Positions 29,121-41,607 of a stretch of DNA of 64,000 nt are shown piece after piece (within the stretch, counting starts at the first letter, position 1; each line of letters begins with the position of its first letter). The notes under the pieces are model-generated. The model saw nothing but the letters and a program-made list of their open reading frames with translations, ran no database searches and was not told where the DNA came from. The position numbers and the translations under genes were made by a program. The stretch comes from Methanogenium sp. S4BF (GTDB lineage: Archaea > Halobacteriota > Methanomicrobia > Methanomicrobiales > Methanomicrobiaceae). Location of the stretch: positions 124,001 to 188,000 of the forward strand of contig NZ_CP091277.1 in NCBI RefSeq assembly GCF_029633965.1, in the 5' to 3' direction.

Positions 29121-32100
29121 ATGGGTTTTTTCAGGCGGTCGGCACCCACTCTTGAACAATGCATTGAAAAGCGTGAATATGAGTGTATTGTTCGTTTTTA
29201 CCTGAAAGGGATGGGTGATGATGCCGCAGCAGCCATGAGTGCTCTTCTGTTTTTCAGTGAGAATGACCCGCGGGCTGTAGCTGATGTGCTCGGCGGTCTG
29301 AATGATCGTGAAATGATGGATGTGGCACGGGCCATCGTCCAGTCCGGGGGGCCGGACCATCCTGCTGTTCTTGCACTGGCCAGATATGCAGGGGCTGAAG
29401 CAGGCCGCTCACTTGGCCGTGCTGTCATGCGCTGTGGAGAGGATGCATTTGACATTCTGGTGAACCGTACTGGTGACGAAGATCAGGATGTACGGCTTGG
29501 GGCAATTAGTCTGCTTGGATGTATCGGGAAATCCGGAATTCCTGTCCTGAAAAAGATTGTATATCACGCAGAAGGGGAAGAACAGCGCACAGCAGCCAAA
29601 TGCCTGCGCCGTCTTGAATGGATTCCGGAAAAACCGGATGATAAACCGATGTTTTTCTTTTTGTGCGATGAGTGGGATGAGCTTATCCGGCTTAAAGAAC
29701 GTGCGCTTCCTCTTTTGTTTTCTCTGGTAAAAAAGGACGATCCTATTCTCAGACAGCAGGTGATACATGCGATGGGGGAGACCGGTGACAAAAGGGTTGT
29801 GCCTGTTATTCTTCCGTATCTCGATGACAGCGCTCCGGAAGTCCGCATTGCAGCACTTACTGCATTAGTACGCTATGACACCCCTGAAACCGAACGGTGT
29901 CTTGTCAGTGCTCTGAATCATACCGATTCACAGATCCGTATTGATGCGGCGCATGCACTGAAACGTAAAGGGTGGAGCCCCCGGCAGCATGGGGATCAAA
30001 TCCGGTATACAATCGCCGGTGGGAACTGGGATGCAGTGAAGGGGTTTGGTGGAATGATCATCCCTGATCTCATCCGGATTGTGCGTACAGGAGATAATGA
30101 GTGGGTGGGGGCAGTACATGCCCTGACTGAAATGGGTCCGGCTGCAGCACGTGAACTGGAGGCGATTCTGCCATCACTACCGGCATCGCAGCAAAAGGAG
30201 ATTATCAGGATCTTCAAAAAATCTGAAGAAAAAAATCGTGTCAGAAGAGAAAATATTCAGAAATTATATCATTCCGAAGGGGATGAGCAGCGCATAGCGG
30301 CCAGATGCCTGCAGGATCTTGGATGGACTCCGGAAAAACCTGAGGATAAACCGATGTTTTTCTTTTTGTGTGGTGACTGGAAGGGGCTTATCGGGATGAA
30401 GGACCGTGCTCTTCCTCTTCTGTTTTCTTTGATAAAGAAGGACGATCCTGCTCTCAGACGGCAGGTGATACAGGCGATGGGGGAGATCGACGATAAAAGA
30501 GTTGTGCCCGCAATTCTGCCGTATATGGAGGATTCTGATCCGGATATCCGTATTGCAGCATTCACCGCAATGATGCGCTATGACACTCCTGAGACGGAAC
30601 GGAGTCTTGTGAGTGCCCTGAACCATGCGGATTCCCAGATTCGTATTGATGCGGCGCATGCACTGAAACGAAAAGGGTGGAGCCCCCGGAATCATGGAGA
30701 TCAAATCCGGTATACGATTGCAGGCGGGAACTGGGATGGAATTATCCAGTTCGGTGACCCGGTTATCCCGGTTCTTATCCATATTGTGCGAACCGGAGAC
30801 AACGAATGGCCGGTTGCAGTACATGCTCTGGCAGAATTGGGTCCTGCTGCAGTACGTGAACTGGAAGTGATTTTACCGTCACTCCCGCCGTCACGTCAAA
30901 AGGAGATTATCGGTATCTTCAAAAAATCTGAAGAAAAAAATCGTCTGAGAAGAGAAAATATTGAAAAATTCTATCATTCTGAAGGTGCTGAACAGCGTAA
31001 AGCAGCCGGATGTCTGCAGGGCCTTGGATGGACTCCGGAGAAATCGGAGGATAAAGCGATGTTTTTCTTTTTGTGCGATGAGTGGGATGAGCTTATCAGG
31101 CTTAAGGAACGTGCGCTCCCTCTTCTGTTTTCTTTGATAAAGAAGGACGATCCTGCTCTCAGGCGGCGTGTGATAAAGGCGATGGGGGAGATCGGTGATA
31201 AAAGGGTTATACCTGTAATTCTGCCGTATATGGAGGATTGTGATCCGAATGTGCGTATTTCAGCACTTCATGCTCTTATCTGCTACGACACCCCTGAGAC
31301 GGAACGGTGTCTTGTGGGCGCTCTGAACCATGCGGATTCACAGATCCGTATTGATGCGGCGCATGCACTGAAACGAAAAGGGTGGACCCCCCGGACACAG
31401 GGTGAACAGATCCGGTATGCAATCGCCAGCGGAAACTGGGGTGCAGTTATCCGACTTGGTGATCCGGTCATCCCGGATCTCATCCGGATTGTACGTTCGG
31501 AAGATAATGAATGGATGGGCGCAGTATATGCTCTGGCAGGACTGGGTCCTGATGCGGCACAGAAACTGGAGGCAGTTCTGCCTTCTCTTCCCGAAACGCA
31601 GCAGAAAAATATTATCGGTGTCTTCAGGAAATCGGCAGAGAAACATCGACTGAAACGTGAAAATCTTCAAAAAGAGCAGGAAAGAAAGAAGCTTGAGGAA
31701 GGGGAAAAGAAGAATTCTGAGGCGAATCAACCCAAAGGGCCCACAGATGACGAGATCCGGGAGACCCAGAAACGGGTCATTGAAGGGTTTAAGTGGTTGA
31801 GGCTCCAGAAGGTTGCAACCGAACAGATCTATGCAATCATCAGTGAAGGAGTAAAGGTTCATAATATCTCCTTTGAAATGGCGGTTGCAGCACTTTCCTC
31901 CAAAGACGAAGCTATTCGTGCTGCGGCAGTAGATGTGCTCTCCATGAAAGGGGAGCGTGCTTATCCGTATATTTTGAAGGCTGCCTATGATAAGAGTCAG
32001 ATAGTGCGGACAGCAGTTGCGGATGCTATCGGATTTACCGCCCAGACAGGGATGATGAAGGTTCTTTCCCATCTTTCGAAGGACCCATCGGTTGATGTAC

Positions 32101-33281
32101 GTCTTGCGGTAGTCAGGGCTCTTCAGATGATGAATAACGAGCGTGCATTTCCATTCATCATTAATCTCTTCTCTGATGAGGATGCGGGGGTACGTGATGC
32201 TGCTGCGCATGCAGCGGCGACATATGGGCAGTTTGGTCTTCCTGTTCTTCTTCGGTCACTTCAGGTGCAGGATTCAGAGATCCGTATTTCTGCGGCAGCG
32301 GCACTGGGGGAGATCTGTGATGTCCGATCCCTGCCGTTCCTGTTGCCTCACCTTGAAGAGCCTGATCGACGGGTGAGAGATGCCATACGGGCAGCAATTG
32401 TGCAACATGACTATCGGGCTATTGAACCACTGCAGGAGTTCATTGAGCAAGCCGCAGGTGAAGCAAAGAATGCTGCTCTTCTGGCGCTGTATGAGATTAA
32501 TCCGGTTCTTGCAGGAGATATCGGTGCTGACAGCCGTATTTTCGAAGAGGCGCATGGAGCAGGTGAAAGTATCAGTGATGTCGCTGCCTCTCCTGTCCGA
32601 TCCATATTTTCACGGAAGAAAACAGGTTTTTCTGCCGGAGTTGGGGCAAAGGCGGCAGATGCAGAATCTGCATCTTCTTCAGATTCAGCCGGTGTTCAAT
32701 CCGGGGGTAAGTCTGAATCGCAGGATGTCTGTGTTGATTCGCGCACCTGTGAAGAGCTGGTACTTCGCATTGAAGGTGGTGAAGATTCACTCTCCTCTGC
32801 TCTTCTCGTAGATCTCTATGATGAGAAGAGCAGTCTGAAATCTGACCTGATGTCTGCAATGCGGGGAAGTGACAGGGAATTTGCGATGCATGCTGCAACC
32901 CTCCTTTCAAAGATCGGCTGGTCCCCTGCCGGAAGCGCGGAAGAGACACTCTTTTTGCTTGCGAGTGGAAGAACAGCAGACCTGAAGAAGGGTGGGGAGA
33001 CTACAGCACGTATTCTCTCCGCAATGGTGAGCTCGATGCCTCCTTCTGTGCAGAATACGATTGTGGATGTTCTCTCCGGTATCGGGGGCCGAGAGGGAAT
33101 TGTTGGTCTGGCTCAGATCGTATCCGGTGAATCAGGTGCAATTTCCGATGCGGCTGCAGAAATGCTTGCAGAGATGGATTCGGATGTTGTGCCTTTCATT
33201 CGTGAAGCCGCAATGTCACAGGAGGGTGCCCGTAAGAAACGGCTCCTGAAAATTATCCGGATAATTGAGGAAGGTAAATAG
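29121..33281 (+). CDS. Giant HEAT-repeat protein with triplicated 235-residue unit
   Basis: A 1386-residue, signal-less, presumably cytosolic protein made almost wholly of HEAT/PBS-lyase-type helical repeats, which usually act as protein-binding scaffolds. After an N-terminal region (1-147), three consecutive 235-residue units are nearly identical, each containing KPMFFFLC or KAMFFFLC, RALPLLFSL, AALNHxDSQIRIDAAHALKRKGW-type and QIRYxIA segments. A charged linker (about 855-880) leads to a second HEAT array (about 905-1145), a Ser-rich acidic linker and a third short array at the C-terminus. No catalytic motif is seen. Only 6 bp follow the uspA stop. The function is unknown. Confidence 0.85.
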   Translation: MGFFRRSAPTLEQCIEKREYECIVRFYLKGMGDDAAAAMSALLFFSENDPRAVADVLGGLNDREMMDVARAIVQSGGPDHPAVLALARYAGAEAGRSLGRAVMRCGEDAFDILVNRTGDEDQDVRLGAISLLGCIGKSGIPVLKKIVYHAEGEEQRTAAKCLRRLEWIPEKPDDKPMFFFLCDEWDELIRLKERALPLLFSLVKKDDPILRQQVIHAMGETGDKRVVPVILPYLDDSAPEVRIAALTALVRYDTPETERCLVSALNHTDSQIRIDAAHALKRKGWSPRQHGDQIRYTIAGGNWDAVKGFGGMIIPDLIRIVRTGDNEWVGAVHALTEMGPAAARELEAILPSLPASQQKEIIRIFKKSEEKNRVRRENIQKLYHSEGDEQRIAARCLQDLGWTPEKPEDKPMFFFLCGDWKGLIGMKDRALPLLFSLIKKDDPALRRQVIQAMGEIDDKRVVPAILPYMEDSDPDIRIAAFTAMMRYDTPETERSLVSALNHADSQIRIDAAHALKRKGWSPRNHGDQIRYTIAGGNWDGIIQFGDPVIPVLIHIVRTGDNEWPVAVHALAELGPAAVRELEVILPSLPPSRQKEIIGIFKKSEEKNRLRRENIEKFYHSEGAEQRKAAGCLQGLGWTPEKSEDKAMFFFLCDEWDELIRLKERALPLLFSLIKKDDPALRRRVIKAMGEIGDKRVIPVILPYMEDCDPNVRISALHALICYDTPETERCLVGALNHADSQIRIDAAHALKRKGWTPRTQGEQIRYAIASGNWGAVIRLGDPVIPDLIRIVRSEDNEWMGAVYALAGLGPDAAQKLEAVLPSLPETQQKNIIGVFRKSAEKHRLKRENLQKEQERKKLEEGEKKNSEANQPKGPTDDEIRETQKRVIEGFKWLRLQKVATEQIYAIISEGVKVHNISFEMAVAALSSKDEAIRAAAVDVLSMKGERAYPYILKAAYDKSQIVRTAVADAIGFTAQTGMMKVLSHLSKDPSVDVRLAVVRALQMMNNERAFPFIINLFSDEDAGVRDAAAHAAATYGQFGLPVLLRSLQVQDSEIRISAAAALGEICDVRSLPFLLPHLEEPDRRVRDAIRAAIVQHDYRAIEPLQEFIEQAAGEAKNAALLALYEINPVLAGDIGADSRIFEEAHGAGESISDVAASPVRSIFSRKKTGFSAGVGAKAADAESASSSDSAGVQSGGKSESQDVCVDSRTCEELVLRIEGGEDSLSSALLVDLYDEKSSLKSDLMSAMRGSDREFAMHAATLLSKIGWSPAGSAEETLFLLASGRTADLKKGGETTARILSAMVSSMPPSVQNTIVDVLSGIGGREGIVGLAQIVSGESGAISDAAAEMLAEMDSDVVPFIREAAMSQEGARKKRLLKIIRIIEEGK
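29562..31676 (+). repeat. Three tandem 705-bp coding repeats
   Basis: The unit borders, set at the Tyr codon of YH(A/S)EG, fall at 29562, 30267 and 30972, exactly 705 bp apart, so units run 29562-30266, 30267-30971 and 30972-31676. Long stretches agree at DNA level as well as protein level, for example around KPMFFFLC and DSQIRIDAAHALKRKGW. The equal length and high similarity imply recent duplication or gene conversion. Confidence 0.9.
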
Positions 33282-33291
33282 GGTGGATAAA

Positions 33292-34524
33292 ATGACCGGA
33301 TATAAACGGATAACCTCCGGTGAACTGGCTCGTACAGGCATGGTTTTGATTGCAATCTGGTTTTGTATTCTGCCAGTCTGTGCTTTTACGGTTACTTCCG
33401 GTCCGTCTGTTGTACCGGATGGGCATGCAGTAATCGGAGAGGCGGTGACCGCTGATATTGAGATAATATACGACGTTTCGTCGATGAATGAGTTCATTAC
33501 GGTATATACTGATATGGGGTCTGACTCGTGGGATGCTGTCATAATTGCCGATGGGCGTGAGATGCCTATTGGTACCAGGAGTGGCCGGTATCTGACAGTG
33601 ACAGGCTTTGAACTCTATAATCCCGGGGCGTCGGTAACGAAACTGCAGGTTCACCTTGAAGGGGTTGTGCCCGAGTACCTGGCGGGTTCCGGTGATGCAG
33701 AAGTGCTCTCTCTTGAACACATTGCTGGTGATGGTGTTACTGTTCTCGATTCTGTATCTGAGAGGATCTCCCTCATTGACCTTGCGGCAGTGAATGGCAT
33801 GCGGACAGAAACGGAAAATGATCTCATCCGGTTTGAAGAACAAATTAATCGTGCATACAATGAAGGAAGCGATACATCAGCAGCAGAAGAGGTTGCTGCC
33901 GATGCCCGTGATCTGATAGAGGCCTCCCTTCAGATGGACCTGCATAATGCCTATACTGCCCTTTCTGAAGCAAAGTATCTCCTCAGTGTTGGAAGGACGA
34001 CACTGACTGACTCGGTCACTCAGGATTTTTTTCAGAATACAGAGGGAATGATCTCAGCGATTGAGCCGGCGATAGCAGAGTACAGGGGTGCCGGCGGTGC
34101 TGATAAACAGGGAGTCCTTGTCGTCCTCTCCTACCGGGACAATGCTGAAATGCTCCTAATACTTGCCCATGATCGTGATTCTGCCGGAGATGATGAGGGT
34201 GCACAGCGGTATGCAGAGGATGCGTATGCGAAGGCCGGTGATGCGATGGCATACCTTGCGGGCATGTACACCGAAGCAGGGCTGACAATGGGAGGGTACA
34301 CGCCTGGTGCAGGAACCCCTCCGCCTTCTTCGGAAGTGTCTGCCACGACTCCTGCTCAGGTGATATCACTGCCTTATGCCATGGATCCGGGAGTGGATGA
34401 AAGTGTGGGGGATATTGACATCGAAGGAACCCTGACATTTTTCCAGGTAGTCCTTGACGGAATCCTGGGAATGGCTGAATTTGTCCGGAATGTCATGGAC
34501 GCATTCTCTGAGATTGGGAATTAA
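33292..34524 (+). CDS. Exported protein of unknown function
   Basis: A 410-residue protein with a signal peptide: basic GYKR, then a hydrophobic GMVLIAIWFCILPVCA at about residues 17-32. The mature part begins FTVTSGPSVVPDG and includes a beta-rich domain (to about 170), a helical acidic region (about 175-330) with Glu/Asp- and Ala-rich helices such as NRAYNEGSDTSAAEE, and a Pro/Ser/Thr linker before a C-terminal amphipathic helix. The N-terminal TSGP style resembles the surface protein at 59386-60642. Start ATG 33292 has GGTGG upstream; it lies 10 bp after the HEAT gene. I do not recognise a family. Confidence 0.7.
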   Translation: MTGYKRITSGELARTGMVLIAIWFCILPVCAFTVTSGPSVVPDGHAVIGEAVTADIEIIYDVSSMNEFITVYTDMGSDSWDAVIIADGREMPIGTRSGRYLTVTGFELYNPGASVTKLQVHLEGVVPEYLAGSGDAEVLSLEHIAGDGVTVLDSVSERISLIDLAAVNGMRTETENDLIRFEEQINRAYNEGSDTSAAEEVAADARDLIEASLQMDLHNAYTALSEAKYLLSVGRTTLTDSVTQDFFQNTEGMISAIEPAIAEYRGAGGADKQGVLVVLSYRDNAEMLLILAHDRDSAGDDEGAQRYAEDAYAKAGDAMAYLAGMYTEAGLTMGGYTPGAGTPPPSSEVSATTPAQVISLPYAMDPGVDESVGDIDIEGTLTFFQVVLDGILGMAEFVRNVMDAFSEIGN

Positions 34525-34539
34525 TCATACCTGACAATT

Positions 34540-35439
34540 TTACCGGTTACTCTCTTTTTTCAACCCTTCTGCGAGGGCCATGATGTCCCATGCAAGTGAT
34601 TCACGCCTGGTGCGTGAATCCATCCGTGTGTCAACGTGGAGGGCATTATCAAAGGGCAGGGGGTCACGGGTATCCATCAGATACAAATCGGTGAACTGAT
34701 CGTAAACCGGGCATTCAGCCCTGCTTTCCGGAGCGTATGTCTTTGCCCCACGTGTCCTACTTCGTTCACCGGTAAACGGGACAAAGGAGATTACGGGAAC
34801 GTTCCCGAGTGTTTCCGGTATTCCTGCACACATCAGTACTGGCATGATGCCTGTGACCGGCCTTCCGGGACCGATGATCACGATGTCACTGTTTCGGATT
34901 GCTTCAATGGATTCCATGGATGCGTGAGGTGTCGTGCCTGACGGAGCATGGACAGCACATGCATGCGTGTCGTCATCATATGTGGTCCTGTACCGGGCAA
35001 GCGAAATCCGCCCGGACGGGGTGGTGACAGACCACTCCCCTATATCATCGGTGGTGGGCAGTATCTGTGCCATAATACCATGAGCGTGGGTGATGGAGTT
35101 TGTCGCATCTGTCAGGCGTTCTTCTTTCAGCCTCTGCGCGCGGTAAATATGCAGGGCACGCTCCTGGTCTCCCACGGCTCGTGATTCTTCTGTGCCGAGT
35201 CGTCTGAGGGCACGGTGTGTTGTGCAGGTATCGCCCTGAATGCCATGCCATGTTCTGGTGTTAAGGATGCCTGCAAAGAGAAATATCAGGGTGTCAAGAT
35301 CGGGAATGGAACACCCGCATGGCGACTCTTGTGCATATGCGGGTGTTGCAATGACCGTAATTTCTGAATCATCCATGAATGAACGAAACCCTGCGATGAG
35401 GCGGGCTGATTCGCTTCCGCCTGAGATGAAGGTGATCAT
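34540..35439 (-). CDS. Divergent CofD paralogue
   Basis: A 299-residue relative of 2-phospho-L-lactate transferase, alignable over its length with the cofD two genes upstream: ITFISGGSESARLI against ITFLSGGTGTPKLM, PDLDTLIFLFAGILN against PDIDTVMYLFAGLLD, IIGPGRPVTGIMPVL against IIGPSNPVTSISPIL, and RDPLPFDNALHVDTRM against RDPKPIEGAIRLDTLM. The conserved Asp of the DIDT motif is kept. The Gly-rich GGTGTPK loop is altered to GGSESAR, and NTAEDMW to TPAYAQES, so substrate or activity has probably changed. It is last in a three-gene operon, ATGA overlap with the membrane protein. Its function is unknown. Confidence 0.8.
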   Translation of the reverse strand: MITFISGGSESARLIAGFRSFMDDSEITVIATPAYAQESPCGCSIPDLDTLIFLFAGILNTRTWHGIQGDTCTTHRALRRLGTEESRAVGDQERALHIYRAQRLKEERLTDATNSITHAHGIMAQILPTTDDIGEWSVTTPSGRISLARYRTTYDDDTHACAVHAPSGTTPHASMESIEAIRNSDIVIIGPGRPVTGIMPVLMCAGIPETLGNVPVISFVPFTGERSRTRGAKTYAPESRAECPVYDQFTDLYLMDTRDPLPFDNALHVDTRMDSRTRRESLAWDIMALAEGLKKESNR

Positions 35440-36440
35440 GCTTCTTCCGTATCCTCCCCTGCCTTTGGTGACGACGGGTCTCTCAGAAGGGAATATCTCT
35501 CATCGAAATCACCAACAACATAGAGTGAATAGGTGCGCAAAAACGTCACGAATGGCACACTTGCCATCAGTCCGCAGAAGGTTACTACGGCAAAATATAG
35601 CGCAAAAAGAAGGGCTATGGCAGGAAGGGAGATGTTTTGGGGCCCGCCTGCCGCGATAAGGATCCCCATCAGGGGGATGCCTGCTCCAATTCCCACTCCA
35701 ATCATCACAACGGAGAGGATGATGCTGACACAGACGGAGAGGATGAGTTTCATGACCGTATACAGTGCCGCCTCCGTTTTTTCCGCACTGAAAAGATGCA
35801 GGCATCGGCGCCATCCTTCAATGATGCCGCATCGGTCGACGTTCATGATGGGGACAACAAAATCCGTTGTCAGCATCAGGATAATGAGATAGGGGATCAT
35901 GAGGATGAGCATCAGTACAATAAATATCAGGATTCTTCCTGCAATTGCCGTATCAGCACTAAGTGTTCCCATAAGCGGAGCAAACAGGAGATATGCGAGA
36001 ACCAGACAGATGCCAAAAAAGAGACCCGAAAGGATGAAAAGGAACGCGAAGTAATGAATGCCGGGACGGGTACTTTCACGGAAGTATGTCCGTATGTGAA
36101 TGTCTCCTGCTCCAAGTGCCTTGATAAAGATGAACTGGAATATTCCGTTTAAAAGAAGATAGACTAGGCCGATGCAGAGCAGAACTCCTGCGATGAGCAG
36201 CAGGAGAGATAGGAGGGCATCCGTGTTCTGCGGGAACAGAGAACTGATGTACTGACCATCACCGAGTTCTTCCGGAGAGATGGAGCCGGTTGAAAACTGC
36301 ACTCCTCCGGCTGCCCCCCCGGCAAACAGGGCTATAAGTGCCAGACGAAGCCATATTCCGATGTCAAATGGAATAAGGATGGATTTTGTCATTGCAACGG
36401 CCCGGTCAATCTCCCGAAACGCGTAGTGGTCCTGTGTCAT
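35436..36440 (-). CDS. Polytopic membrane protein between two cofD genes
   Basis: A 334-residue integral membrane protein with about six hydrophobic segments: WLRLALIALFAGGAAGG, LLSLLLLIAGVLLCIGLVYLL (two helices' worth), FAFLFILSGLFFGICLVLAYLL, ILIFIVLMLILMIPYLIIL, ILSVCVSIILSVVMIGVGIG and ALLFALYFAVVTFCGLMA. The layout suggests the DUF7544/DUF4013-like archaeal membrane families, which have no known function; this is tentative. It overlaps cofD at its start and the cofD paralogue at its end, each by ATGA, so the three are coupled. It might couple the divergent CofD-like protein to the membrane. Confidence 0.75.
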   Translation of the reverse strand: MTQDHYAFREIDRAVAMTKSILIPFDIGIWLRLALIALFAGGAAGGVQFSTGSISPEELGDGQYISSLFPQNTDALLSLLLLIAGVLLCIGLVYLLLNGIFQFIFIKALGAGDIHIRTYFRESTRPGIHYFAFLFILSGLFFGICLVLAYLLFAPLMGTLSADTAIAGRILIFIVLMLILMIPYLIILMLTTDFVVPIMNVDRCGIIEGWRRCLHLFSAEKTEAALYTVMKLILSVCVSIILSVVMIGVGIGAGIPLMGILIAAGGPQNISLPAIALLFALYFAVVTFCGLMASVPFVTFLRTYSLYVVGDFDERYSLLRDPSSPKAGEDTEEA

Positions 36441-37357
36441 GAATCCCTGTGGTCTTTTTGTGTGTCAATGATTTGCTGAATGTTTTCTGCCAGTGCCAGT
36501 GCGGCTTCCTTGTCCGTCATGAGGGTATCCAGACGGATGGCCCCCTCTATCGGTTTTGGGTCCCGGATGTCCTGAACAAATACGTCGGTGAACTCCCGGT
36601 AGAGATCATAGGTTGACTGCCCGTTTGGTGCCATGTCCCATGCCATCATCAGTTCTGCAGCTGGCCCGCTCACCGGTATGTCACCAATAAACGGACTAAT
36701 TACTATCACAAACTGATCCTTGAGTGCTTCTTTCACTCCTTCACATTCAAGAATCGGTGAGATGCTGGTGACGGGGTTTGACGGTCCGATAATAACTGCA
36801 TCGGCATCACGGATTGCCTTTAAGACCTGTTCTGTTGCTATGGGTGTTTCACTGCATCTCCGTATGACTGCGTCTATTGTCACTGCTCCCCTGTGTCCGA
36901 CCCAGTATTCCTGGAAGTGCATCTCCGTACCATCGCTCTGGATGCAGGTTGTAACTTCAGTGTCGCACATGGGGAGAATGGTCGCATCACACTGGAGACG
37001 GGATGAGAGATGCTGTGTCGCCTCTGTGAGTGTAATCCCTGAGCGGAGCATCTCTGCCCGTGCAATGTTGACCGCACGGTCCCTGTCCCCGAGGGTAACC
37101 GGTTCGGGACACCCGATTCTCTCAAGAAATTCACTGGTGATGGTGGTGTCATCTTGGATACCCCACCATCTGTCTGTGTCAAGGAGTCCTGCAAAGAGGT
37201 ACATCACTGTGTCAATGTCTGGTGAAAGGTGACTGCCGGAGAACCACATGTCCTCTGCTGTGTTTACAATGACTGTCATCTCATGGTCTGCAATGAGCGT
37301 CCGGTATCCCCGCATCAGTTTGGGGGTGCCTGTCCCGCCGGAGAGGAAAGTTATCAT
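36437..37357 (-). CDS. cofD: 2-phospho-L-lactate transferase (F420 biosynthesis)
   Basis: Transfers the phospholactyl moiety from the guanylylated intermediate to Fo, giving F420-0, the core step of coenzyme F420 synthesis. The 306-residue protein has the ITFLSGGTGTPKLM phosphate loop, VNTAEDMWFSG, PDIDTVMYLFAG with the essential Asp, LGDRDRAVNI and IIGPSNPVTSI. All expected motifs are intact, so this, not the paralogue downstream, is the likely functional enzyme. Start set at 37357 by the family N-terminus; an extension to 37555 would run back through the promoter and the HD gene. Confidence 0.94.
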   Translation of the reverse strand: MITFLSGGTGTPKLMRGYRTLIADHEMTVIVNTAEDMWFSGSHLSPDIDTVMYLFAGLLDTDRWWGIQDDTTITSEFLERIGCPEPVTLGDRDRAVNIARAEMLRSGITLTEATQHLSSRLQCDATILPMCDTEVTTCIQSDGTEMHFQEYWVGHRGAVTIDAVIRRCSETPIATEQVLKAIRDADAVIIGPSNPVTSISPILECEGVKEALKDQFVIVISPFIGDIPVSGPAAELMMAWDMAPNGQSTYDLYREFTDVFVQDIRDPKPIEGAIRLDTLMTDKEAALALAENIQQIIDTQKDHRDS

Positions 37358-38635: not shown

Positions 38636-39187
38636 ATGAAGAAACGATTTGTTGTGGCAGTTACCGGTGCAAGCGGTATGGTGTATGCACGGCGCCTTCT
38701 GGAAGTGCTCCAGGACAAAGCAGAAGTGCATCTCATCATATCGGATATTGCACTGCGTATCGCTGAATATGAAGGGGTGGATTTCTCCGGGTTTGATGTT
38801 GTCTATGCAGATAATGACAATATGTTCGCCGATCTTGCGAGCGGGTCATTCCGGTATGACGGCATGGTCATCATTCCGTGCAGTATGAAGACGCTTGCTG
38901 CTATTGCTTCAGGATTTTCGGATAATCTTATTACACGAACGGCAGATGTCTGCCTGAAAGAGAGAAGAACGTGTATTCTGATGCCCCGTGAGATGCCCCT
39001 TTCCCGGATTCACCTGAAGAATATGCTCTGCCTTGATGAAGCAGGAGCCACAATCATGGTTATCAGCCCGGCATTTTACACACGGCCGCAATCAATCGAG
39101 GACCTTGTCGATATGGTGGTGGCCCGTGTCCTTGATCATATGAATGTCGACCATACCCTCAGTACACGATGGAAAGGTGAATATTAA
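38636..39187 (+). CDS. ubiX: Flavin prenyltransferase, UbiX family
   Basis: Makes prenylated FMN, the cofactor of UbiD decarboxylases, from FMN and dimethylallyl phosphate. The 183-residue Rossmann-like flavoprotein starts KRFVVAVTGASGMVYARRLL, with the family segments GMVIIPCSMKTLAAIASGFSDNLI (read as IIPCSMKTLA) and LMPREMPLSRIHLKNM. It shares one base with the next gene (TAATG at 39185-39189), a UbiD homologue, so enzyme and cofactor maker are co-produced. Confidence 0.94.
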   Translation: MKKRFVVAVTGASGMVYARRLLEVLQDKAEVHLIISDIALRIAEYEGVDFSGFDVVYADNDNMFADLASGSFRYDGMVIIPCSMKTLAAIASGFSDNLITRTADVCLKERRTCILMPREMPLSRIHLKNMLCLDEAGATIMVISPAFYTRPQSIEDLVDMVVARVLDHMNVDHTLSTRWKGEY

Positions 39188-40428
39188 TGCGAACGTTTAT
39201 CGAAAAAATGCGCGGGGAAGGACGGGTCATCGATATTGAAGAGCCCTGTTCAACCGTCTTTGAAGCCCCGAAACTGGCCAGTGAAACCGACGATCTCCTC
39301 TTCTTCCATAAGCTGGACGGCAACAGAAAGGGTGTAATGAATGTGACGGCATCGCGTGCCTCCCTCTCCTGCGCCCTTGGGATTCCTGAACATGATATTG
39401 TGCCCCGCCTGGCAGCCACCGGGCAGAATGGAATGATTACGGAAGGGAAACGCCTGAATATGAGTGTACCGGATCTGAACAGTCTTCCGGTGATGAAACA
39501 TTTCCCTCTTGATGCGGGAAGATATCTGACATCAGCGATCGTCTTTTCACAATATGGCGGGGTTGAAAATGCATCCATCCACCGGATGCAGGTCCTTGAT
39601 GAGAAGCGGCTTGCGGCCCGGCTCGTAGAAGGGAGGCATACACATTCCCTTCTCCAGGATGCCCTTTCCGATGGAGAACGCCTGCCGGTTGCCATAACAA
39701 TCGGTACTCATCCGGCAGTGACGTTTGCCTCCTGCACCCGCGTACCGCAGGGAAAAGAGATGCAGTATGCTGCTGAGCTGCTTGGCGGTGAGATCGAGTT
39801 AAACACCTGTTCACATGGTGTGCGGGTCCCGGATGCAGAGATCGTGCTGGAAGGGTATATTGGAAGTGAGACCACCGAGGAAGGTCCTTTCGTGGATATT
39901 ACCGGGACCTATGATCCGGTTCGACAGGGTCCGGTGATTGAGATCACCGGGATGCACATGAAGCCCGATGCAATCTATCACGGGATTCTTCCGGCCGGTA
40001 ATGAGCATAAAATCCTGATGGGCATGCCGTATGAACCGAAGATCTTCCAGGCAGTTGCCGGTGTTACGCGGGTGAAAAATGTGGTTCTTACAACCGGTGG
40101 GTGCGGATATCTGCATGGCATTGTCCAGATAAAAAAGAGCACGCAGGGGGATGCAAAAAATGCTATCATGGCGGCCTTCGCTGCTCATACGTCCCTGAAA
40201 CATGTTGTGGTGGTTGATGAGGATATCAACCCGTTCCGGATGGAGGATGTGGAGTATGCTATTGCAACCCGCGTGCGTGCAGACCGTGATGTGATGATCA
40301 TCGAAGGAGTCCGTGGGTCATCTCTGGACCCCTGCCGTATTGGTGACGGGACCAATGTGAAGATGGGAATTGATGCGACAATGGTCATGGGAGAAGAAGA
40401 GAAGTTTATCAGAGCTGAATGGGACTGA
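39187..40428 (+). CDS. UbiD-family decarboxylase, likely anhydromevalonate phosphate decarboxylase
   Basis: A 413-residue prenyl-FMN-dependent decarboxylase. UbiD landmarks include SAIVFSQYGGVENASIHRM (split as IVFSQYGGVENASIHRM), TIGTHPAVTFASCTRVP, ETTEEGPFVDITGTYD with catalytic Glu/Asp, and VVVDEDINPFRMEDVEYAIATR. Position directly after ubiX and 6 bp before an aconitase-X gene fits the archaeal modified mevalonate route, in which trans-anhydromevalonate 5-phosphate is decarboxylated to isopentenyl phosphate. The assignment to that step is by gene context; other UbiD substrates cannot be excluded from sequence alone. Confidence 0.87.
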   Translation: MRTFIEKMRGEGRVIDIEEPCSTVFEAPKLASETDDLLFFHKLDGNRKGVMNVTASRASLSCALGIPEHDIVPRLAATGQNGMITEGKRLNMSVPDLNSLPVMKHFPLDAGRYLTSAIVFSQYGGVENASIHRMQVLDEKRLAARLVEGRHTHSLLQDALSDGERLPVAITIGTHPAVTFASCTRVPQGKEMQYAAELLGGEIELNTCSHGVRVPDAEIVLEGYIGSETTEEGPFVDITGTYDPVRQGPVIEITGMHMKPDAIYHGILPAGNEHKILMGMPYEPKIFQAVAGVTRVKNVVLTTGGCGYLHGIVQIKKSTQGDAKNAIMAAFAAHTSLKHVVVVDEDINPFRMEDVEYAIATRVRADRDVMIIEGVRGSSLDPCRIGDGTNVKMGIDATMVMGEEEKFIRAEWD

Positions 40429-40434
40429 TATATA

Positions 40435-41607
40435 ATGTACCTTGATTCAGATGATGAAAAGGTTCTTGCGGGAGAATACGGCGAAACCCGCAGGAAGATG
40501 ATGGAGATTCTTGTTGCTCTTGGAAAAGTCTTCGGGGCAGAGAAGTTTGTGCCAATCACCAGCGCACAGGTGGCAGGTGCATCATATAAGACGATAGGTA
40601 AATGGGGTCTCGAATGGCTGAGAAGTCTTGATGCACGGGTGGCTGTGCCCGCTGTTCTTAATCCAATCGGGATGCCGCGTGAACGATGGCAGGAGATGGG
40701 CATTCCCTCTGATTTTGCAGAGAAACAGAACGCTGTTCTGGATGCATACCGGCGGCTGGGAGTTAAACTGGAGTGCACCTGCACACCGTATTATATCAAC
40801 CGGACATCATACGGAGAACATATTGCATGGTCTGAGTCGTCTGCTGTGTCCTATGCGAACTCGGTAATCGGTGCCCGGACGAATCGTGAGGGTGGTCCTT
40901 CTGCCCTTGCTGCTGCAATTATCGGGAAGACGCCGTTTTATGGTCTGCATATCTGGGAGAACAGGATGCCGCAGGTGGCATTCCGGATTGAAGCGGAAGA
41001 AACGCTCCATGCCCGCCATTATGGTGCCATCGGGTATCTCGCCGGAAAGGTGGCGGGCAACCGTGTGCCGTTCTTTTATGGAATACGGCCAAATCGCGAC
41101 CAGCTGAAGGCACTTGGCGCTGCAATGGCTGCCAGTGGGGCAGTGGCGCTGTATCACGTTGAGGGTATCACCCCTGATTCCCGTGTGCTGCAGGAACGAG
41201 GGACTGATATATCCGCACTGGAAACGATCACCATTACCGGGGAAGAGATTGAGGCAGTCTTTGAGGAACGGACTGTTGATGCGGTGGCAATTGGGTGTCC
41301 GCACTGCTCAGAGGATGAACTGGAGGAGATTGCAGGGCTACTGAAGGGGAAAAAGGTAATAAAACCATTGTACATCTTTGCTGCACGGGGTGTGGCGCAG
41401 GCACATCCCAATCTTGTTGGAAGAATTGAGCAGTCCGGTGCACGAGTGTGGGAGGATACCTGTATTGTTGTTTCGCCCGGAATGGATCACTTTGACACGA
41501 TAATGGTCAATTCGGGTAAGGCATTTGCGTATGTACCGAATATGTGCGGTGCAGCGGCGGTCCTTGGATCTACTGAGGAATGTATTGCTGCTGCTCTGGG
41601 CGAATAA
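40435..41607 (+). CDS. Aconitase X large subunit, phosphomevalonate dehydratase
   Basis: A 390-residue catalytic subunit of the aconitase-X family, expected to dehydrate (R)-5-phosphomevalonate to trans-anhydromevalonate 5-phosphate. Cysteines that would ligate the Fe-S cluster are in CTCTPYY, GCPHCSEDE and NMCGAAAVLGS. TSAQVAGASYKTIG and TNREGGPSALAAAIIG are family hallmarks. It ends the operon ubiX-ubiD-acnX. The small subunit, normally a separate protein of about 130 residues in Archaea, is not found nearby and must be encoded elsewhere. Confidence 0.9.
   Translation: MYLDSDDEKVLAGEYGETRRKMMEILVALGKVFGAEKFVPITSAQVAGASYKTIGKWGLEWLRSLDARVAVPAVLNPIGMPRERWQEMGIPSDFAEKQNAVLDAYRRLGVKLECTCTPYYINRTSYGEHIAWSESSAVSYANSVIGARTNREGGPSALAAAIIGKTPFYGLHIWENRMPQVAFRIEAEETLHARHYGAIGYLAGKVAGNRVPFFYGIRPNRDQLKALGAAMAASGAVALYHVEGITPDSRVLQERGTDISALETITITGEEIEAVFEERTVDAVAIGCPHCSEDELEEIAGLLKGKKVIKPLYIFAARGVAQAHPNLVGRIEQSGARVWEDTCIVVSPGMDHFDTIMVNSGKAFAYVPNMCGAAAVLGSTEECIAAALGE

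Follow-up and report, generated by a model that had tools for sequence, protein, structure and literature searches.

Organization of the locus

The window, i.e. the whole stretch of 64,000 nucleotides of Methanogenium sp. S4BF that was analysed, carries on its minus strand three genes arranged head to tail in the order cofD1, DUF7544 and cofD2. Their features are as follows:

36437..37357, minus strand: cofD1, canonical 2-phospho-L-lactate transferase, 306 aa (TIGR01819, PDB match, key residues)
36437..36440, minus strand: ATGA overlap cofD1/DUF7544, 4 bases
35436..36440, minus strand: DUF7544 membrane protein, 334 aa, about six TM segments (PF24400, hydropathy)
35436..35439, minus strand: ATGA overlap DUF7544/cofD2, 4 bases
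34540..35439, minus strand: cofD2, diverged CofD paralogue, 299 aa (PF01933, predicted fold)

The start of cofD1 was set at the ATG at 37357, the mechanical open reading frame reaching as far as 37555. The arrangement proposed in the sequence-only reading—a cofD, a membrane protein gene and a cofD paralogue with ATGA at both junctions—has been borne out by the reading frames and the two 4-base overlaps. The genome possesses exactly two CofD genes.

Concerning the individual proteins, CofD1 passes the TIGR01819 equivalog cut-off (337 vs. 257.45 bits), has the M. mazei CofD as its best PDB match (3C3D, E 6e-79) and exhibits the full set of key residues in the alignment. The middle protein is a clear member of the family DUF7544 (PF24400; 228 bits vs. 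a cut-off of 27); its hydropathy profile displays about six hydrophobic segments, in agreement with the six helices read from the letters alone, and its nearest named relatives originate from Methanogenium marinum (81% identity) and M. cariaci. No relative of DUF7544 was found in the PDB, and its structure model was discarded as too poor (pLDDT 43, pTM 0.30). CofD2 shares 35% identity with the window's own CofD1; the Pfam CofD domain PF01933 spans its whole length (81 bits vs. a cut-off of 30), while its score remains below the TIGR01819 equivalog cut-off (157.6 vs. 257.45 bits) and it fails the GlmR/YvcK subfamily profile TIGR01826 (30.3 bits vs. a cut-off of 196). Its predicted model, of modest quality (pLDDT 60), has the M. 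mazei CofD (3C3D/3C3E) and FbiA as top structural matches (Foldseek against 3c3d: E 2.3e-16, prob 1.00), so that the distal gene does encode, as proposed, a full-length CofD relative.

The trio is flanked by genes of various kinds. The gene at 33265-34524 codes for a fast-evolving protein of 419 aa without a Pfam match and is convergent with cofD2; its place is conserved in most Methanomicrobiaceae genera and its rate covaries with that of DUF7544 (partial r 0.67). At 29121-33281 lies the gene of a HEAT-repeat protein of 1386 aa containing internal blocks that are nearly identical; it gives shorter or weaker alignments in other genera. On the opposite side, at 38636-41607, a UbiX-like flavoprotein, UbiD and AcnX (by Pfam) are encoded in a row beside an HD gene, this set adjoining cofD through most of the order; the first three make up the archaeal mevalonate pathway set (a dehydratase together with a prenyl-FMN decarboxylase).

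Distribution and history of the cofD pair

The Methanomicrobiaceae sample comprised 28 genomes from nine genera. The trio in the same order was found in 19 genomes covering eight of these genera, the region being broken by contig ends in the ninth; it is thus family-wide, although the sequence-only reading had left room for its being confined to the present genome. The ATGA overlaps are restricted to Methanogenium, gaps of about 20-180 bases separating the genes in the other genera. Several genomes deviate: DUF7544 is absent from G083 and G087, both retaining CofD2; CofD2 of G025 is located at another site, still adjoining a gene homologous to that at 33265-34524 of the window; the assembly of G079 stops within cofD1; and G049 has lost most of DUF7544 and kept CofD2. 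In the last case (L067:6516-6983) the internal deletion is in frame, with residues about 89-249 gone and both ATGA junctions retained.

In the sister family, designated f4—by the GTDB reading it would be Methanoculleaceae—CofD2 lies immediately upstream of CofD1, the distance being 71-497 bases in most cases and larger in two genomes; DUF7544 occupies other sites unlinked to CofD2. Both CofDs occur in all 14 f4 genomes of the phylum sample that are at least 90% complete; the remaining families of that sample have one CofD, except for a few draft assemblies. The seeming second CofD of haloarchaea (two matches per genome) was rejected, being one gene split into two stretches. The two genes are neighbours in nearly all genomes and non-adjacent in three (G025, G141 and G157). 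Their linkage could go back to a tandem duplication that never dispersed.

DUF7544 itself is widespread in the order, usually as one full-length copy, its linkage to cofD being absent outside Methanomicrobiaceae; in its tree, the trio and stand-alone copies separate weakly (72/87). In the examined loci of f4 and of the Methanospirillaceae-like family f3, the stand-alone gene is divergent from a tetrapyrrole synthesis cluster (L146:5566-11607, L147:80-6100; L145, L151, L153) coding for a Met8-like dehydrogenase, glutamyl-tRNA reductase, ALA dehydratase, an aminotransferase and porphobilinogen deaminase. A function of DUF7544 in the neighbourhood of cofactor synthesis may merit attention.

The CofD2 sequences all fall into a single clade (support 100/99), within which the parts from Methanomicrobiaceae and f4 are each supported. 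The branches separating its genera exceed those of CofD1 several times in length, so that some influence of long-branch attraction is conceivable; the shared derived residues, i.e. the C-terminal W, S and D, nevertheless support a single origin of CofD2. A duplication placed in the common ancestor of both families was not rejected by the AU test (p 0.056). In five Methanogenium genomes, omega is about 0.15 for CofD2 in all pairs, 0.10 for CofD1, 0.18 for DUF7544 and 0.05-0.09 for the neighbouring housekeeping genes HD/ubiX/ubiD/acnX, and the cofD2 frame is open in all good assemblies. Judged from this purifying selection, CofD2 is functional and no relic.

Residues lost, retained and gained in CofD2

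The residues of 38 CofD2 sequences (21 from Methanomicrobiaceae, 17 from f4) were compared with those of 73 CofDs (59 CofD1 and 14 outgroup CofDs), the contacts being taken from FbiA and a review, and the motif losses being read from the alignment. In the window's CofD2 the following positions are concerned:

35401..35421, minus strand: residues 7-13, GGSESAR replacing GGTGTPK (alignment)
35332..35337, minus strand: Y35-A36 replacing E35-D36, E35 aligning with the FbiA metal ligand D45 (alignment; PMC7253369)
35299..35301, minus strand: D47, retained, equivalent to FbiA D57 and M. mazei CofD D46 (alignment; PMC8498797)
34987..35004, minus strand: SLARYR replacing HFQEYW, deazaflavin-pocket subdomain (alignment; PMC7253369)
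34738..34785, minus strand: stretch aligned with the GDP-enclosing FbiA loop 239-254, the P-x-S-GPA motif lost (alignment; PMC7253369)
34585..34602, minus strand: CofD2-specific C-terminal motif ESLAWD (CofD2 alignment)

The substitution in the phosphate loop, seen already in the sequence-only reading, stands; its AR part is, however, no lesion by itself, since AR is also present in the loop GGVGGAR of the active FbiA, the phosphoenolpyruvate transferase from M. smegmatis (6UVX-6UW7), which has the same fold and likewise departs from GTGTPK. The metal ligands of FbiA are D45 and D57 (PMC7253369), which align with E35 and D47 in the numbering of the window's CofD, and D46 of the M. mazei CofD, corresponding to FbiA D57, is important for activity (PMC8498797). 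While FbiA retains both aspartates and a working nucleotide loop, the window's CofD2 has Tyr at the first position and thus one of the two metal acids of a CofD. The Asp of the DLDT motif, described earlier as kept, is indeed there (D47 of PDLDT), but its retention is untypical because 10 of the 21 CofD2 from Methanomicrobiaceae have lost it. Both metal-ligand positions are acidic in 73/73 other CofDs and in 20/38 CofD2 (9/21 in Methanomicrobiaceae, 11/17 in f4), the missing acid differing by genus. The second acid of NTAED, D36, invariant in the 73 CofDs, is found in none of the 21 Methanomicrobiaceae sequences and in 16/17 from the sister family.

Concerning the substrate pockets, the FbiA loop 239-254 encloses GDP and the subdomain 145-189 helps to form the deazaflavin pocket (PMC7253369). 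The GPA of the former is present in 73/73 CofDs vs. 0/38 CofD2; as for the latter, HFQ-x-x-W is invariant in the 73 CofDs, its W152 persisting in 4/38 CofD2. Of the 72 columns invariant in CofD1 and the outgroups, at least 90% retention was observed in 20 for CofD2 from Methanomicrobiaceae—structural glycines and prolines, W64-G66-D70-T74 and G90-D91-R94-R100—and in 38 for those from f4. Fourteen of the 72 are lost nearly everywhere in CofD2, clustering at 147-157 and 228-233, inside the regions of the two FbiA elements just mentioned. The alignment of the paralogues, suggested along with the sequence-only reading and related here to the described regions of FbiA, places the losses at the GDP lid, the deazaflavin pocket and the metal acids. 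In comparison with the M. mazei CofD (3C3D/3C3E/3CGW), the LPPG:Fo 2-phospho-L-lactate transferase, CofD2 has the fold and length in common but lacks GPA, HFQ-x-x-W, the NTAED acids and the GTGTPK loop.

A new C-terminal S-L-A-W-D motif is fixed in CofD2 (W 38/38, S 37/38, D 34/38); it is not strictly unique to it, since CofD1 of f3 contains a similar ALAWELMAV. It should be added that in CofD2 of G083 and G087 the DTYST motif is followed by an insert of low complexity in which T, D, N, S, A and E abound (L155:2709-3770, L156).

Possible roles of CofD2

Our preferred, albeit tentative, reading is that CofD2 represents an ancient CofD paralogue which does not perform LPPG:Fo transfer and serves CofD1 as its partner or regulator. 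It goes back to an ancient cofD duplication, its present range being Methanomicrobiaceae and f4, and keeps the CofD fold; it would have lost the transfer reaction and be a pseudo-enzyme, most likely joined to CofD1 as a heteromeric partner or as a regulatory subunit. The CofD1-CofD2 couple would then tune the incorporation of 2-phospho-L-lactate into F420. Co-transcription of the pair with the DUF7544 gene is probable in Methanomicrobiaceae, and the product of that gene may localise the complex without being essential to it. A pseudo-enzyme working with CofD1 fits the stepwise disappearance of catalytic residues in a gene under purifying selection, the new fixed motif and the lasting linkage to cofD1. 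For a contact of CofD2 with CofD1 or CofC, co-occurrence and linkage are the signs seen. CofD and FbiA are dimers (PMC7253369) and CofC is inactive without CofD (PMC8498797), which would offer an obvious place for a CofD-like partner to act. Within the CofD superfamily, GlmR/YvcK regulates another enzyme, GlmS, in B. subtilis (PMC10128056); it binds UDP-GlcNAc and its D40/D41 are predicted to be catalytic, CofD2 being far closer to CofD. That the two families share a pseudo-CofD in an obligatory hetero-complex with CofD1, which DUF7544 would tie to the membrane in Methanomicrobiaceae and which would control the committed F420 step, is a more far-reaching version that we regard as rather doubtful.

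Somewhat less likely, CofD2 could be a working transferase whose substrate has changed, the donor not being LPPG or the acceptor not being Fo, so that a modified deazaflavin or an unrelated phosphodiester would be made. The strong purifying selection is consistent with this, as are the fold, the metal acid D47 and G90-D91..R94..R100 retained in the window's CofD2; such a change of activity is most conceivable in f4, where most acids persist (D36 in 16/17, both metal acids in 11/17). Against it speak the metal acids lost at different positions in different genera, the GDP-lid motif lost in 38/38 CofD2 and the single copy of CofC: no second CofC was found, the extra PF01983 matches being weak, so that a second activating enzyme as a sign of a second substrate pathway was rejected and a second donor pathway gains no support.

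The view that CofD2 senses Fo, F420 or a nucleotide by binding it and signals through DUF7544 draws on the trio order conserved in eight genera; we consider it improbable, CofD2 being free of an adjacent DUF7544 in f4 and staying where DUF7544 is lost (G083, G087) or mostly deleted (G049). The covariation of rates between DUF7544 and CofD2 (partial r 0.43) is not specific and was dropped as evidence of partnership, since the fast convergent neighbour gene, used as a control, covaries with DUF7544 more (0.67). The membrane partner proposed for the paralogue in the sequence-only reading has accordingly fared poorly, the relocated CofD2 of G025 adding to the above points; with DUF7544 unlinked to cofD outside Methanomicrobiaceae and the weak split of its tree, a specific role as a CofD2 partner is weakly supported.

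It is very improbable that CofD2 is an ordinary isozyme catalysing the same reaction, as the common fold and the vicinity of cofD1 would allow: it scores below the TIGR01819 equivalog cut-off and lacks GDP-lid, deazaflavin-pocket and acid residues invariant in 73/73 CofDs. That CofD2 is a functionless duplicate in decay, for which the lost catalytic motifs and long branches could be quoted, is scarcely credible in view of omega about 0.15 in all Methanogenium pairs, the open frames, the universal presence in near-complete genomes of two families and the newly fixed motif.

In the open-access literature, no description of such a paralogue was found, the sequence-only reading having known of no described role for the trio; methanogen CofD paralogues and pseudo-enzymes went unmentioned there, as did DUF7544, which is weak evidence of novelty. 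Likewise, no dedicated regulator of F420 synthesis was found described in open-access papers. An annotation by domain only would label CofD2 a second CofD, a name that misleads if it is not plainly wrong. In hydrogenotrophic methanogenesis, F420 serves as the central hydride carrier. If true, the hetero-complex with CofD1 would add to F420 synthesis a regulatory layer not found described, and CofD2 is a testable candidate for a regulator of F420 synthesis or for a new deazaflavin reaction.
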